The position numbers were made by a program, and so were the translations under genes. A stretch of 8,166 nucleotides of DNA, taken from positions 1 through 8,166 of the forward strand of contig JABIQT010001033.1 of assembly GCA_018667995.1 (NCBI GenBank), given 5' to 3'. Numbering within the stretch: position 1 is the first letter of the stretch; the number at the start of each line of letters is the position of its first letter. The notes under the pieces are model-generated. The model saw only the letters and a list, made by a program, of their open reading frames with translations, ran no database searches and had not been told where the DNA came from. Of the stretch, positions 1,923 to 6,802 are shown one piece after another. This stretch comes from Candidatus Latescibacterota bacterium. GTDB taxonomy: Bacteria > JAAXHH01 > JABIQT01.

Positions 1923-2021
1923 ATATTACTAGGGGTAGTGTCCTATTTCATAATAGATTTATTGGACACTGACAGCCCCGAACGAATAGAGTGCAGCGCC
2001 GTAGGCTGCCTGGAGTTTTGG

Positions 2022-3224
2022 ATGGACTGGAATACATTGTACGCTGACCGAATGGCTTTGATAAGCGACACATCCATCATCGGTCTTCTGAAGCTAGCCG
2101 AACGTCCTGATGTGATATCATTTGCAGGTGGTTTACCCGATCCCAAGTCCTTCCCGTTGCCTCGTATTAAAGAAGCTGCTGATTGGGTTCTTGACAACGA
2201 AGGTCCCGCATCACTACAATACGGACCGACTGCTGGGTATACTAACTTGCGCGAGTGGATCGCGGCTCGTATGGAAACCATAGACAAGGTATCCATGACG
2301 GCGGATCATCTCATGATCACCTCCGGAGGATTGGAGGCGATAGATCTGGTTGCCAAGGCCTTCATCAATCCAGGTGATACCGTGATCGTAGAGGCGCCGT
2401 CCTATCTGGCAGCCTTACACACCTTTCGAAGTTATCAGGCTGAATTGGTGGATGTTCCCATTGATAGCAATGGGCTTGATGTGGACAGACTCGATGTCTG
2501 TCTAAATGATCTTTCTCGTCAGGGCATAAAACCTAAGTTTATTTATACTATAGCGACTTTTCAGAATCCGGCAGGTGTGTCCCTCTCTACTGAGCGGCGA
2601 CGACGGCTTGTGGAGGTCGCTGACAAATACGGTGTCCCTATCCTTGAGGATGCACCCTACGCAGAGTTGCGTTACGAAGGCGAGCCGCTTCCGTCGCTGG
2701 TCTCTTTGAATCCGGATGGCGTGATTTTCGTCAATACATTTTCGAAGATCTTTGGCCCCGGAATTCGATTGGGCTGGATCGCTGCCCCGCCGGATGTGAT
2801 TGCACAGTTCTGCCAGTGTAAACAAGGAACGGATCAATGTTCGAGCACGATCGGGCAGAGAATCGTGTACGAATACGGCAAACGAGGTTATATTGACCGA
2901 CAGGTTGCGGAATCTATACCAATTTATCGTGAGAAACGTGACCGTACGCTTGCCGCATTAGAGAGCGCTATGCCACCCGGTGTAGAGTGGACGCATCCTG
3001 CAGGTGGCTTCTATCTGTGGGTTACGCTCCCCGATGGTGTAGACTCAGTCCCCATGCTGGCATGGGGCATAGAGAATGAGAAGGTTGCGTATGTAGCCGG
3101 CCCACCTTTCTACATGGACGGTCGAGGCGAAAACCAACTGCGCCTCTGCTATAGCTTCTTGGAGGCTGATCAGATCGAGGATGGCGTCGGAAGGCTTGGA
3201 CGCGTGATCGGTCACCATATCTAA
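2022..3224 (+). CDS. PLP-dependent aminotransferase, class I/II, LysN/2-aminoadipate-type
   Basis: A cytosolic fold-type I PLP enzyme moving an amino group between an amino acid and a 2-oxo acid; the closest recognisable group is the LysN/aromatic/2-aminoadipate transaminase family. The 400-residue product has the family N terminus (MDWNTLYADR), VISFAGGLPDP at 32-42, SGGLEAIDL for cofactor phosphate contact, QNPAG with Asn182, EDAPYAEL with Asp210 and Tyr213, the Schiff-base Lys242 in TFSKIFGPGIRLGW, and substrate-carboxylate Arg374 in QLRLCYS. All expected catalytic residues are present, so it should be active. I chose ATG 2022 because GGAG lies 6 nt upstream and the family starts there; GTG 1938 would add 28 residues with no family match. 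The native substrate is not decided by sequence: aminoadipate, branched-chain, aromatic or kynurenine are all possible. It stands as its own unit with promoter and terminator. Confidence 0.93.
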   Translation: MDWNTLYADRMALISDTSIIGLLKLAERPDVISFAGGLPDPKSFPLPRIKEAADWVLDNEGPASLQYGPTAGYTNLREWIAARMETIDKVSMTADHLMITSGGLEAIDLVAKAFINPGDTVIVEAPSYLAALHTFRSYQAELVDVPIDSNGLDVDRLDVCLNDLSRQGIKPKFIYTIATFQNPAGVSLSTERRRRLVEVADKYGVPILEDAPYAELRYEGEPLPSLVSLNPDGVIFVNTFSKIFGPGIRLGWIAAPPDVIAQFCQCKQGTDQCSSTIGQRIVYEYGKRGYIDRQVAESIPIYREKRDRTLAALESAMPPGVEWTHPAGGFYLWVTLPDGVDSVPMLAWGIENEKVAYVAGPPFYMDGRGENQLRLCYSFLEADQIEDGVGRLGRVIGHHI

Positions 3225-3248
3225 AGGCGCCATCAGGCGTCAATGAGT

Positions 3249-3275
3249 GCCTGACTTTAACTTTCAGGTCTTTTT
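3249..3275 (+). terminator. Probable intrinsic terminator after the aminotransferase gene
   Basis: CCTGA (3250-3254) pairs with TCAGG (3264-3268) across a 9-nt loop, with one extra G-U pair outside, and is followed by TCTTTTT. A second small GC-rich hairpin (3227-3231 with 3236-3240) sits just before it, right after the stop codon. The main stem is short, so termination may be partial and the TPR genes could receive read-through. Confidence 0.5.
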
Positions 3276-3339: not shown

Positions 3340-4020
3340 ATGCAGCTTAAACATTCGACCTGTAAAGATCTGCGTTTCTCAGAGCCGAATGGTGACTGTT
3401 GCATTGCTCTGCGATTAATAGTCACATTCCTGCTGATCTGTATTCTAGGCGGAAGTTGTGCGCCAACGGCCGTTGTACAGGCGCCTACCGTCGGAGATTT
3501 GCCCAGGTCCCTTCTGCTGAGTCGCGAAGAAGTACTGGCTGTTCTGGACGAATTGGAAATGGTTAGGAAGTCTATCAAGAGTGATGGAAAAAATGCACAG
3601 CTTCATTACCAGGCAGGGCTTTTAGAAGAACGGATAGAGCGATGGGGTGATGCTCTAAGGGATTTCCAGGAGGCCATTCACCGAAACTCAAACTTTGCCG
3701 AAGCGTACTATCATGCAGGTTATGTGGCCGAAAAGGTCGACGAAGCCTATGAGATTGATCCGGAAACCGGGGAGCCTGGTCGCAAGGTAGGCGGTGCAAT
3801 GCAGCGATACGCAGTGTCCTCCTACAGGAAGGCTGTCCAACACAAGCCCGATTATCCGGATGCACAATACCGACTATGTATGGCTTACTTACTCAATAAG
3901 GACTTGTCCCGCGCACTGGATGCCTACCAAGGCTTCAAGGTTTTGGAACCGGGGACAAGTCGAGAGAGGGAACTACTCTCACGTGTATACGACCTGCAGA
4001 AAGCCCAACAGAAGGACTGA
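3340..4020 (+). CDS. Exported TPR protein, probable lipoprotein (TPR cluster gene 1)
   Basis: A 226-residue protein with a hydrophobic segment at about 23-38 ending in GGSC (Cys40), which resembles a signal peptidase II site, although position -3 is Gly rather than the usual Leu. After a linker and a helix at 61-82 come tetratricopeptide-type units: TPR1 about 85-117 (LHYQAGLLEERIERWGDALR), TPR2 about 118-170 broken by an insertion, and TPR3 about 171-204 (DAQYRLCMAYLLNKDLSRAL). The insertion (about 133-157) lies in the turn of TPR2 and contains GRKV and MQR, motifs shared with the next two genes. TPRs bind protein partners; the partner is unknown. GGAGG lies 11 nt before the ATG, rather far but the best available. 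It is the first of three paralogues on the same strand, 115 nt after the aminotransferase. Specific function not recognised. Confidence 0.88.
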   Translation: MQLKHSTCKDLRFSEPNGDCCIALRLIVTFLLICILGGSCAPTAVVQAPTVGDLPRSLLLSREEVLAVLDELEMVRKSIKSDGKNAQLHYQAGLLEERIERWGDALRDFQEAIHRNSNFAEAYYHAGYVAEKVDEAYEIDPETGEPGRKVGGAMQRYAVSSYRKAVQHKPDYPDAQYRLCMAYLLNKDLSRALDAYQGFKVLEPGTSRERELLSRVYDLQKAQQKD

Positions 4021-4045
4021 TACTGGTCTCCGGCTTGTGAAGCTC

Positions 4046-4660
4046 ATGCGATGCTTGGCTTCCGTAGTCGCGGTCTGGCTTGTTTTGGAATTGCCTTTGG
4101 CTCCTCTTGTACTCGCTCAAGATGAAGACAAAGGGAACGGTGAATCCAGAACGACGATGCGTACTTCTCGGAGACGCATGTCCGGCCTGACTTTAGAGGA
4201 TATCCGTGGTTCGCTCAAAAAAAACCCCGATGATGCACTGCTGTATTACCGGGCCGGACTTCTGGAAGAGCAACGTGGAAATCTAGAGCAGGCGTTGAGG
4301 GACTACCAGGAGTCCGTTAATCGGAAAGCCAGAGTATCGGATGCATGGTTTCGCATGGGGACAGTTTGGGAAAAGTCAGGTGAGCTATACGACCTGAAAG
4401 GTATGACCAAAGGGCGTGTGGTCAGTGGTCCTCAGCGTAGAAAAGCGATCGATGCTTACAAGGCGGCGGTCAGGGCAAGGCCGGATTTTGCCGACGCGCA
4501 CTATAGACTTTGTCTGGTTTACCTAGTAGGTGATGATATGCGCGAAGCAAATGAATCATATCAGAAGCTGCATGACCTCGAACCAAAATCGGACCGTACC
4601 CGACAGTTACTTCTCATGATCTACAAGCGGCATCAGGTCCAATCCAGGCAAAAACGATAG
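4046..4660 (+). CDS. Exported TPR protein (TPR cluster gene 2)
   Basis: A 204-residue paralogue of its two neighbours. The N terminus is a classic signal peptide: MRC, a hydrophobic core to about residue 22, and a cleavage site VLA|QDE (Ala24/Gln25). There is no lipobox cysteine, so unlike its neighbours it is predicted to be released into the periplasm or outside. A basic linker (RTSRRR) precedes TPR1 about 62-94 (YYRAGLLEEQRGNLEQALRD), TPR2 about 96-147 with the shared turn insertion (SGELYDLKG...GRVVSGPQRR), and TPR3 about 148-181 (ADAHYRLCLVYL). The reading frame is open back to 3794 inside gene 1, but those codons are out of frame with gene 1 and lack TPR or signal character, so I take ATG 4046; GTG 4037 is an alternative. 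The ribosome binding site is weak. The gap from gene 1 is 25 nt, consistent with one operon. Confidence 0.87.
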   Translation: MRCLASVVAVWLVLELPLAPLVLAQDEDKGNGESRTTMRTSRRRMSGLTLEDIRGSLKKNPDDALLYYRAGLLEEQRGNLEQALRDYQESVNRKARVSDAWFRMGTVWEKSGELYDLKGMTKGRVVSGPQRRKAIDAYKAAVRARPDFADAHYRLCLVYLVGDDMREANESYQKLHDLEPKSDRTRQLLLMIYKRHQVQSRQKR

Positions 4661-4670
4661 GAATACTCTA

Positions 4671-5288
4671 ATGTCTCTCCCTTGCAGTCGCCTCCTTCTT
4701 GTTCTCACACTTACATTCAGTCTTGCATATATCTCGTCCGGTTGTGCCGCCCGCAGAACACCGGGGCCAACGATCGTGGTTGTGGATGACCGTTCTGCCC
4801 CAGATCCTCCTATTCTGAAATCAGAAGAAGAGCAGGCCCGAAGGCAACTCTCCGTGATGAAGGACCTGCTAAAGAAAGACGATCGAAACGCTAAGCTGCA
4901 ATTTGAGGTCGGGCTACTGGAAGCGCGACTCGGTCATTGGGATGCGGCACGGAGCAAATTCAAAAAGGCGCTCGATCTGGATCCAAGATACGCCGATGCT
5001 CAGTATCAAATTGGCCTTACCTGGGAACACAGCGGCGAGATGTACGTGATTACCAAAGGACGCACCGTCTTGCCCCTACAGCGGGAACGCGCAATCGAGG
5101 CCTACCAGAAAGCTATAGTAATGGATTCCTATTTGGCAGATGCCCACTACCGCCTTGCAGTATTGGCATTGATGGATGAGAACATTGAGATAGCGCGTAA
5201 GGCCATTGATGACTTGGCACGTATTGAGCCTGAGTCCCGTCGATCCCATGAGATGCTAGCAAAACTTACCGAGATCTTCCGACCGTAG
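4671..5288 (+). CDS. Exported TPR protein, probable lipoprotein (TPR cluster gene 3)
   Basis: A 205-residue paralogue of the two genes before it. A short n-region (MSLPCSR), hydrophobic core (8-21) and ISSGC (Cys25) suggest a lipoprotein, although the lipobox is again not perfect (Ser at -3). A proline-rich stretch (31-50) follows, then a helix at 51-70, TPR1 about 72-105 (LQFEVGLLEARLGHWDAARS), TPR2 about 106-153 with the shared insertion (SGEMYVITKGRTVLPLQRER), and TPR3 about 154-188 (LADAHYRLAVLALMDENIEI). The ATG lies 10 nt after the stop of gene 2, with AGGA 8 nt upstream overlapping that stop codon, so the two are surely co-transcribed. A strong terminator follows. By family knowledge it is likely a scaffold or adaptor on the envelope; no catalytic motif is seen. 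Confidence 0.88.
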   Translation: MSLPCSRLLLVLTLTFSLAYISSGCAARRTPGPTIVVVDDRSAPDPPILKSEEEQARRQLSVMKDLLKKDDRNAKLQFEVGLLEARLGHWDAARSKFKKALDLDPRYADAQYQIGLTWEHSGEMYVITKGRTVLPLQRERAIEAYQKAIVMDSYLADAHYRLAVLALMDENIEIARKAIDDLARIEPESRRSHEMLAKLTEIFRP

Positions 5289-5342: not shown

Positions 5343-5346
5343 CTGG

Positions 5347-5380
5347 AAAGACCTGAGTTAGTCGCGCTCAGGTCTTTTTT
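5347..5380 (+). terminator. Strong intrinsic terminator closing the TPR operon
   Basis: AAAGACCTGAG (5347-5357) and CTCAGGTCTTT (5367-5377) form a perfect 11-bp stem around a 9-nt loop, followed by a run of six T ending at 5380. This is a textbook Rho-independent terminator for the plus strand. Its right arm and T-run are also the last codons and stop (TGA, 5368-5370) of the convergent minus-strand gene. On the minus strand the trailing T-run is only three bases, so termination in that direction should be weaker. Confidence 0.9.
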
Positions 5381-6483
5381 ATGTGTTGAGCTATATCTCT
5401 CATCAGAGGGGCAATTGCTTGCTTTCGACCAAATACTAGACTTCGCGTGCGAGGCATTTCTGCGAGCAGATTGATGGCGGTCCTATTGGCTTCGACAAGG
5501 CCCGGGGCGTCGCCATCGAGGGTGATGTAGAGAAAGTGTGGACCAATAGTTCCTGATGGATGTAGTCGGGTTTCCAACTTCGACTGCATATCCTCTGTCT
5601 CGGCGGCTTCGACTCGCGGACAGAAATTGATGGAGCCCGCATCAGGGTGGCCGAACGATGTTCGAAATTCAACCAAATCCAAGTCTCTATTAAACGTCCA
5701 AGTGACATCTTGTTCGATATTCGTCTGTTTAGTGGGGCTTCTTTCTGCGGTCGATGCGATGGAACCAAACCTGCTACAGTCCACGCTCTCTCTTGAACAA
5801 TTGCCGTAACTCAAAGCCTTGTGATCCCATTTCAGATTCCCCAGGTCGACCGTCCCCGGTTCCTGATAGCCCAGAGATTGCCACATTTTCAGTAGAATTC
5901 TCACAGCATCACCCGAAGAAGCACCATCTTGCTCGCTCAACTCGAAATCTCCGGCCAGAGCCTTCATACTTCCCTGATTAAGAATTGGAAAAACGCCATC
6001 TCCGTAGACCATCTGGAAACCCCGTAGATTCTTGTGTACGTCCCACGTAGGGCTCAGTGATCGTTCGTCCGTAACATGCACTGCGTAATCAACGGGTATC
6101 GGGCGCGAATGAATCTCTGGATGGTAGAAGTCGAGCTGGTTTCCCATGGGGTAATCACTTGAGGCAAAGGGGATTGTAAACGAACAGATGGTGGTCTGGT
6201 CATCCACGACACCGAAGGCTCGAGTCAATTCACCCAATCGAATCAGGTAGTTTCCGGTGGAGCGGGGTGTGCATGTCGCGGATCCCGTCTTGATCGGTGC
6301 CGAGTCAGTCCATGACACTCTGACCCCGTCGCCCACGGTGAATTCTTGTTCGAGGTATCGTTCTGTCAGCTCTAAGGTCAATGGTAGGTACTCACGGCCG
6401 CTTGTGACGCTGATCGTCACAGGATCCCCGAGCTTTACAAGTTCAGGATGGACTGTGACGGATTCCTGATATTCACCCACCAT
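5368..6483 (-). CDS. Hypothetical protein of 371 residues, unrecognised
   Basis: I do not recognise this protein. The reading frame is long and clean and ends inside the shared terminator. Residues 1-100 look beta-rich, like an immunoglobulin-type domain (ESVTVHPELVKLGDPVTISV, later GNYLIRLGELTRAFGV). The middle (about 120-260) has aromatic-rich segments such as GFQMVYGDGVFPILNQGS and LGNLKWDHKALSYGN plus several Cys (NCSRESVDC, NFCPR). The C-terminal part (about 295-371) looks alpha/beta: PHFLYITLDGDAPGLVEANR followed by basic helices. There is no signal peptide or membrane segment, which is odd for a protein starting with an Ig-like fold; the N terminus may be truncated or the true start different. 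No Shine-Dalgarno precedes ATG 6483; that ATG overlaps the stop of the glycerol kinase fragment by 11 nt, so coupled translation is possible. Confidence 0.75.
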   Translation of the reverse strand: MVGEYQESVTVHPELVKLGDPVTISVTSGREYLPLTLELTERYLEQEFTVGDGVRVSWTDSAPIKTGSATCTPRSTGNYLIRLGELTRAFGVVDDQTTICSFTIPFASSDYPMGNQLDFYHPEIHSRPIPVDYAVHVTDERSLSPTWDVHKNLRGFQMVYGDGVFPILNQGSMKALAGDFELSEQDGASSGDAVRILLKMWQSLGYQEPGTVDLGNLKWDHKALSYGNCSRESVDCSRFGSIASTAERSPTKQTNIEQDVTWTFNRDLDLVEFRTSFGHPDAGSINFCPRVEAAETEDMQSKLETRLHPSGTIGPHFLYITLDGDAPGLVEANRTAINLLAEMPRTRSLVFGRKQAIAPLMRDIAQHIKKT

Positions 6484-6802
6484 TCGGATCGGCCCAACCT
6501 TTGCTCTTTGATACCGCTTTCTGCCAGCCCAAAAACAGTCGGTCCCGTACCTTTGCTTCCATCCGTGGCTCGAATACCTGGATTCCAGGCCTGTCTACGG
6601 GTAGAGCGGTCGTATTTTTCCAAATATTGACACCGAGACCGGCAAGGAGCGCTGCGCCAAAGGCGGTGGTTTCGGAGACTGATGGTCTCTGAACCGAGAT
6701 TCCAAGAATGTCAGCCTGAAACTGCATCAGAAAATCGTTAGCAGCAGCAGTCATTCGCTTGACTGCATCAGGAGCTGAAGACGGGATTGGCGACGAGGTC
6801 AT
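6473..6802 (-). pseudogene. glpK: Glycerol kinase C-terminal remnant (109 codons)
   Basis: Glycerol kinase phosphorylates glycerol to sn-glycerol 3-phosphate and is normally about 500 residues. Only the last 90 or so are here: NDFLMQFQADILGISVQRP, SETTAFGAALLAGLGV, FEPRM...RDRLFLGWQKAV and a natural C terminus KSKGWADPNGG. The first 17 residues (MTSSPIPSSAPDAVKRM) do not match, and the conserved VDGG loop that should precede the NDFLMQ segment is absent (KRMTAAAND instead). The FGGY N-terminal domain with the sugar-binding site is missing, so no kinase activity is expected. Still, the ATG has AAGGA 6 nt upstream (6809-6813) and an in-frame stop 24 nt upstream, so the fragment could be translated as a small protein. 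Most likely a decay product of a deletion; the preserved 3' part suggests a recent event or a retained role. Confidence 0.85.

Follow-up and report, generated by a model that had tools for sequence, protein, structure and literature searches.

The stretch of DNA analyzed here, referred to as the window, is an entire contig (C395) of 8166 bases from a fragmented genome bin (1165 contigs, 6.06 Mb in total) with an estimated completeness of 85%. It carries three adjacent TPR genes, here named A, B, and C, whose products are predicted from their sequences to be exported. Gene A (3340 to 4020, + strand) encodes a three-TPR protein of 226 residues with a weak lipobox-like GGSC (Cys40), gene B (4046 to 4660, +) a three-TPR protein of 204 residues with a type-I-like signal peptide and a putative cleavage site between LVLA and QDE, and gene C (4671 to 5288, +) a three-TPR protein of 205 residues with a lipobox-like SSGC. 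The assignments of A and B draw on sequence, Pfam, and AF2 models, and that of C on sequence and Pfam. An initial annotation had already described three adjacent genes coding for 226, 204, and 205 residues, and these are indeed open reading frames on the same strand, separated by 25 bases (A to B) and 10 bases (B to C), with homology far above chance.

Upstream of gene A lies a gene for a class I/II PLP aminotransferase (1938 to 3224, +; PF00155, E = 2.5e-39). Two terminator-like hairpins are found in the window, a weaker one of 8 pairs 3' of the aminotransferase gene (3233 to 3254, +) and one of 14 pairs with a T tail, resembling an intrinsic terminator, 3' of gene C (5345 to 5379, +). Since these hairpins, both consensus matches only, flank the three TPR genes, A-B-C may form a transcription unit of its own. 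The aminotransferase scores best against the MocR-like factor PdxR, with 242 bits against a cut-off of 320, and is a stand-alone enzyme, ordinary in length, with no recognized DNA-binding domain. A PC4-like protein (PF02229) of 86 residues is encoded at 1453 to 1713 on the reverse strand, and a relative of it adjoins the aminotransferase gene in genome G011 as well as in members of the sister genus g3.

Paralogy and targeting of A, B, and C

Searches of the window's own genome (G000) directly established that the three proteins are paralogous: protein A as the query retrieved B with an E value of 4e-32 and C with 3e-18, and protein B retrieved A with 3e-32 and C with 5e-22. Pairwise identity is 27 to 32% across the whole alignment, and all three share one layout, in which a hydrophobic stretch at the N terminus is followed by a variable linker, a cap helix, the three TPRs, and a helix at the C terminus, as judged from sequence and Pfam for A, B, and C and from structure models for A and B. 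PF13414, PF07719, and other TPR models score above their gathering thresholds in each of them, and the cores of the A and B models match solved TPR clamps with Z scores of 16 to 18. An origin of A, B, and C by duplication is thereby supported.

In the family tree, the B proteins of the window, G011, and G013 form a clade with support of 100/99, and the C proteins of the window and G011 form another with 94/89; the placement of A is weak (48/44). Because the B and C clades are well supported, the split between them predates the divergence of G000 and G011. Two B orthologues are 73, 86, and 37% identical at codon positions 1, 2, and 3, respectively, which points to purifying selection.

The initial annotation had proposed a tandem duplication followed by divergence of targeting, with two lipobox-like proteins and one cleavable signal peptide. 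Both the duplication and a divergence between B and C are supported, and the assignment is plausible for these two proteins and weak for A. A type-I-like cleavage site with no lipobox is found in B in all four genomes that carry the family, and B therefore looks soluble in each of them. For C, we compared the residues after the signal peptide with the lipobox consensus [LVI][ASTVI][GAS]C. The orthologue in G011 has a canonical ITGC while the SSGC of the window is off consensus, and C looks like a lipoprotein. The GGSC of the window's A is off consensus as well, with a glycine at position -3, making a lipoprotein assignment for A doubtful.

The insertion in TPR2

All three proteins carry an insertion at the turn between helix A and helix B of TPR2, as the initial annotation had noted and as the alignment and the canonical TPR spacing confirm. 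Measured against that spacing, the insertion comprises 19 residues in A, 17 in B, and 14 in C, and 13 to 19 in the whole family, so that the 17 to 25 residues first reported for A, B, and C were slightly too many. When the family profile is aligned with consensus TPR proteins, a 14-position gap opens exactly at this turn. The motif originally described for the insertion, (G/D)E-x-Y ... GRxV ... QR, holds. As read from the alignment of the eight members found at the locus in four genomes, E-x-Y is present in all eight, R-x-V in six, and QR in seven.

In the AF2 models, A and B each have the cap helix, three TPRs, and the C-terminal helix, with two strands placed between helices A and B of TPR2. 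Strands assigned by DSSP span residues 135 to 139 and 146 to 150 in A and residues 113 to 116 and 123 to 126 in B. The predicted β-hairpin thus covers residues 135 to 150 of A (EAYEI ... GRKVG; 3742 to 3789, +), where the alignment agrees, and residues 113 to 126 of B (ELYD ... GRVV; 4382 to 4423, +); the equivalent segment of C, residues 123 to 133 (EMYVITKGRTV; 5037 to 5069, +), is placed by alignment only. On the models, E-x-Y corresponds to the first strand, GRxV to the second strand, and QR to the start of helix B. Mean pLDDT is 81 for A and 78.5 for B, and by blocks the hairpin is modeled with lower confidence in B (64 to 71) than in A (75 to 83), with the tip of the B hairpin (residues 119 to 122) at low confidence. 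Both models were calculated from four-sequence alignments of the same four sequences and, given this common input, count as one piece of evidence and not as two.

Conservation agrees with the models. Column identity among the eight locus members is 53% and 42% for the two strands, compared with 43% for TPR1, 48% for TPR3, and 28% for the hairpin tip. Strands as conserved as the TPR core, joined by a tip that is free to vary, support the hairpin model. A disordered and unconserved segment, named at the outset as the observation that would count against the insertion, was not what we found: the individual models of A and B place a hairpin at the equivalent site, and we consider the TPR2 insertion to be supported as conserved and as a predicted β-hairpin.

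Distribution of the family

A profile built from nine family members was run over all sixteen phylum genomes examined. The nine members fall in 4 of the 16 genomes with E values of ~1e-72 or lower, and the next best match in the phylum has an E value of 4e-17. Copy number varies: the window's genome has A, B, and C, G011 has B and C, G001 has a protein termed A', B, and a distant lone member, D, and G013, apparently the same genome as L011, has B only, which makes B the sole member constant across all four. Among the hits read from a separate scan of genome contigs, L011 was the only further member. D (252 residues; L047:4877-5635, +, on contig G001:C26) is encoded away from the aminotransferase locus and has a 13-residue insert with part of the motif only. 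Weaker matches in the phylum, such as 238-residue proteins in g3 and a 229-residue protein of the window's genome (G000:C697), were, among those read, generic TPR proteins with no insert.

In each of the four genomes the same gene, that for the PLP aminotransferase, lies directly upstream of the first TPR gene of the locus and is itself flanked on the far side by a copper-ATPase gene. Downstream of the TPR genes the neighbors differ between the four genomes, and no functional neighbor is conserved there; the enzyme encoded by the conserved upstream neighbor is of a cytosolic type and shows no evident connection to them. An orthologue of the aminotransferase is present in all 16 phylum genomes, including the twelve of the sister genus g3, in which the profile search found no family member anywhere. 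Among the g3 aminotransferase loci that were read, with 1.5 kb of flanking sequence, the neighboring gene is PC4-like or unrelated, for example dioxygenase-like. Part of the order therefore conserves the locus and the family, with its hairpin, but not the triplet suggested by the window, the number of copies ranging from one to three. The family does not dissolve into unrelated single TPR genes lacking the insertion, the outcome that had been set against the initial annotation, as insert-bearing members occur in four genomes.

Outside the phylum, scans of ~660 genomes at strict thresholds, in which scoring was limited to a certain number of first-look candidates in each genome, yielded only ordinary TPR proteins with no insert and no family member. 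These scans covered 368 genomes of other phyla across the domain and then 195, 84, 39, and 3 genomes, with some genomes shared between scans, and those of 84, 39, and 3 genomes had no internal positive control. For the twelve best non-family matches, which were checked individually, the profile span differed by -14 to -16 or by +20 to +21 residues, as opposed to -5 to +7 for the nine family members. Such spans correspond to a protein with no insert, or to one with an extra 34-residue repeat minus the insert. Because the outside genomes gave TPR proteins devoid of the insert wherever spans were checked, the family looks lineage-restricted within the limits of this sample.

Known systems and a probable role in the envelope

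The nearest known features are found in two proteins, and the family belongs to neither. Ycf3, the photosystem I assembly protein (NF002725), is an assembly factor that also has three TPRs and carries an insertion where helix A turns into helix B, and the family profile aligns through this insert of equal length nearly without gaps. In Ycf3, however, the insert sits in the last TPR and lacks E-x-Y and GRxV, the protein has no signal peptide, and B and C score 30.5 and 22.3 bits against a cut-off of 143 (A is not among the listed matches). The earlier statement that no named family with this layout was known must accordingly be qualified: an insert equally long and at the same turn does have a precedent, though in the last repeat and lacking the motif. 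The other likeness, one of structural feature, is to p67phox (NCF2), a eukaryotic, cytosolic protein whose hairpin lies between two repeats and not inside one. There, a β-hairpin insertion in the TPR domain binds Rac together with the loops joining TPR1-3 (PMC8387964).

With NlpI, PilW (PilF), and Tgl the family shares the character of small exported TPR proteins, adaptor lipoproteins of the envelope in the case of these three, but A, B, and C score far below the corresponding NCBIfam cut-offs: 33.6 (A) and 32.0 (C) bits, with B not listed, against 250 for NlpI (NF008391), 19.9 to 27.3 bits against 154 for PilW/PilF (TIGR02521), and 26.0 to 34.9 bits against 225 for Tgl (NF033762). MamA, the magnetosome scaffold, is a small TPR protein that is cytosolic and self-assembling.

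Our preferred reading, to which we assign a probability of about one half, is that A, B, and C are lineage-restricted exported three-TPR clamps that were duplicated in tandem beside the aminotransferase gene, diverged in targeting, and act as envelope adaptors with the hairpin as a second contact. The paralogues would have arisen by tandem duplication next to that gene, after which B would be a soluble periplasmic protein and C one anchored as a lipoprotein, the fate of A being uncertain. Each protein would then be an adaptor or assembly factor whose TPR groove holds a peptide or partner and whose hairpin adds a second, specific contact. With soluble and anchored versions, one kind of clamp would be available both in the periplasm and at the membrane. 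In our judgment, the proteins are most likely periplasmic or membrane-anchored adaptors for which the hairpin is an added surface of contact, and they probably serve to hold other proteins together in the cell envelope. An obligate three-part complex of A, B, and C is unlikely, because the number of copies varies and B is the only member in G013. The initial annotation is thus borne out in what it observed, insert length and the lipobox of A aside, and only in part in how it interpreted the set.

It is also possible, though we favor it less, that these are ordinary periplasmic TPR proteins in which the hairpin is an inherited ornament that stabilizes an extended TPR2 with no special binding, the copies being redundant duplicates. 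The plain TPR core fold would fit this, as would the variable copy number, the twelve sister-genus genomes that do without the family, and the strong differences between the paralogues elsewhere. What speaks for the adaptor reading instead is that, among paralogues only ~30% identical, the strands are conserved like the TPR core while the tip is free, and that two genomes have kept B and C as distinct clades, each with its own signal type. A more specific proposal, in which soluble and lipid-anchored copies form a lineage-specific envelope assembly set and use the conserved hairpin to recognize one another or a shared partner, appears unlikely to us; such a hairpin-based mode of TPR recognition was not found described in bacteria, and a literature search for hairpin insertions in periplasmic TPR proteins returned nothing relevant.

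Still more doubtful is a self-assembling scaffold in which the hairpin forms the interface between subunits and the paralogues polymerize or co-assemble like MamA. MamA (NF040959) ranks first or nearly so among the named models for all three proteins (34.5, 43.3, and 34.7 bits for A, B, and C) and is among the best fold matches (3vty, Z = 16.3 to 16.5), and a scaffold would be well served by anchored and soluble members together. The bit scores, however, lie far below the 200-bit cut-off and express a general likeness between TPR proteins, and one genome has a single family member. The adjacency to the aminotransferase in 4 of 4 genomes raises the idea that the TPR proteins act with this enzyme or with the copper ATPase, for example in an envelope stress or metal response. 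We regard this as very improbable, as the enzyme is of a cytosolic type and the TPR proteins are exported, a terminator-like hairpin lies between the two in the window, and twelve genomes keep the aminotransferase with no TPR family member; shared descent explains the linkage.

What is new here is the lineage-restricted hairpin variant, the TPR fold itself being common and already known. Found in an uncultured lineage, the family makes up a small and well-delimited TPR subfamily whose conserved β-hairpin lies inside a repeat. Should the hairpin be a binding surface, it would offer a simple, testable case of a common repeat fold gaining a specific contact and would also show duplicates splitting between soluble and anchored forms; if not, this would be one more lineage-specific TPR family.

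Two further reading frames follow in the window on the reverse strand. The one at 5368 to 6483 encodes a 371-residue protein with no Pfam or NCBIfam match. It shares 36% identity (E = 1e-65) with a 562-residue protein of G001 (L046:14021-15709, -), over the N-terminal two thirds of the latter, which is likewise encoded downstream of TPR genes on the opposite strand. The other, at 6473 to 6802, encodes 109 residues and overlaps the next gene; it matches nothing but the last part of the C-terminal domain of FGGY carbohydrate kinases and looks like a leftover piece of a degraded kinase gene.
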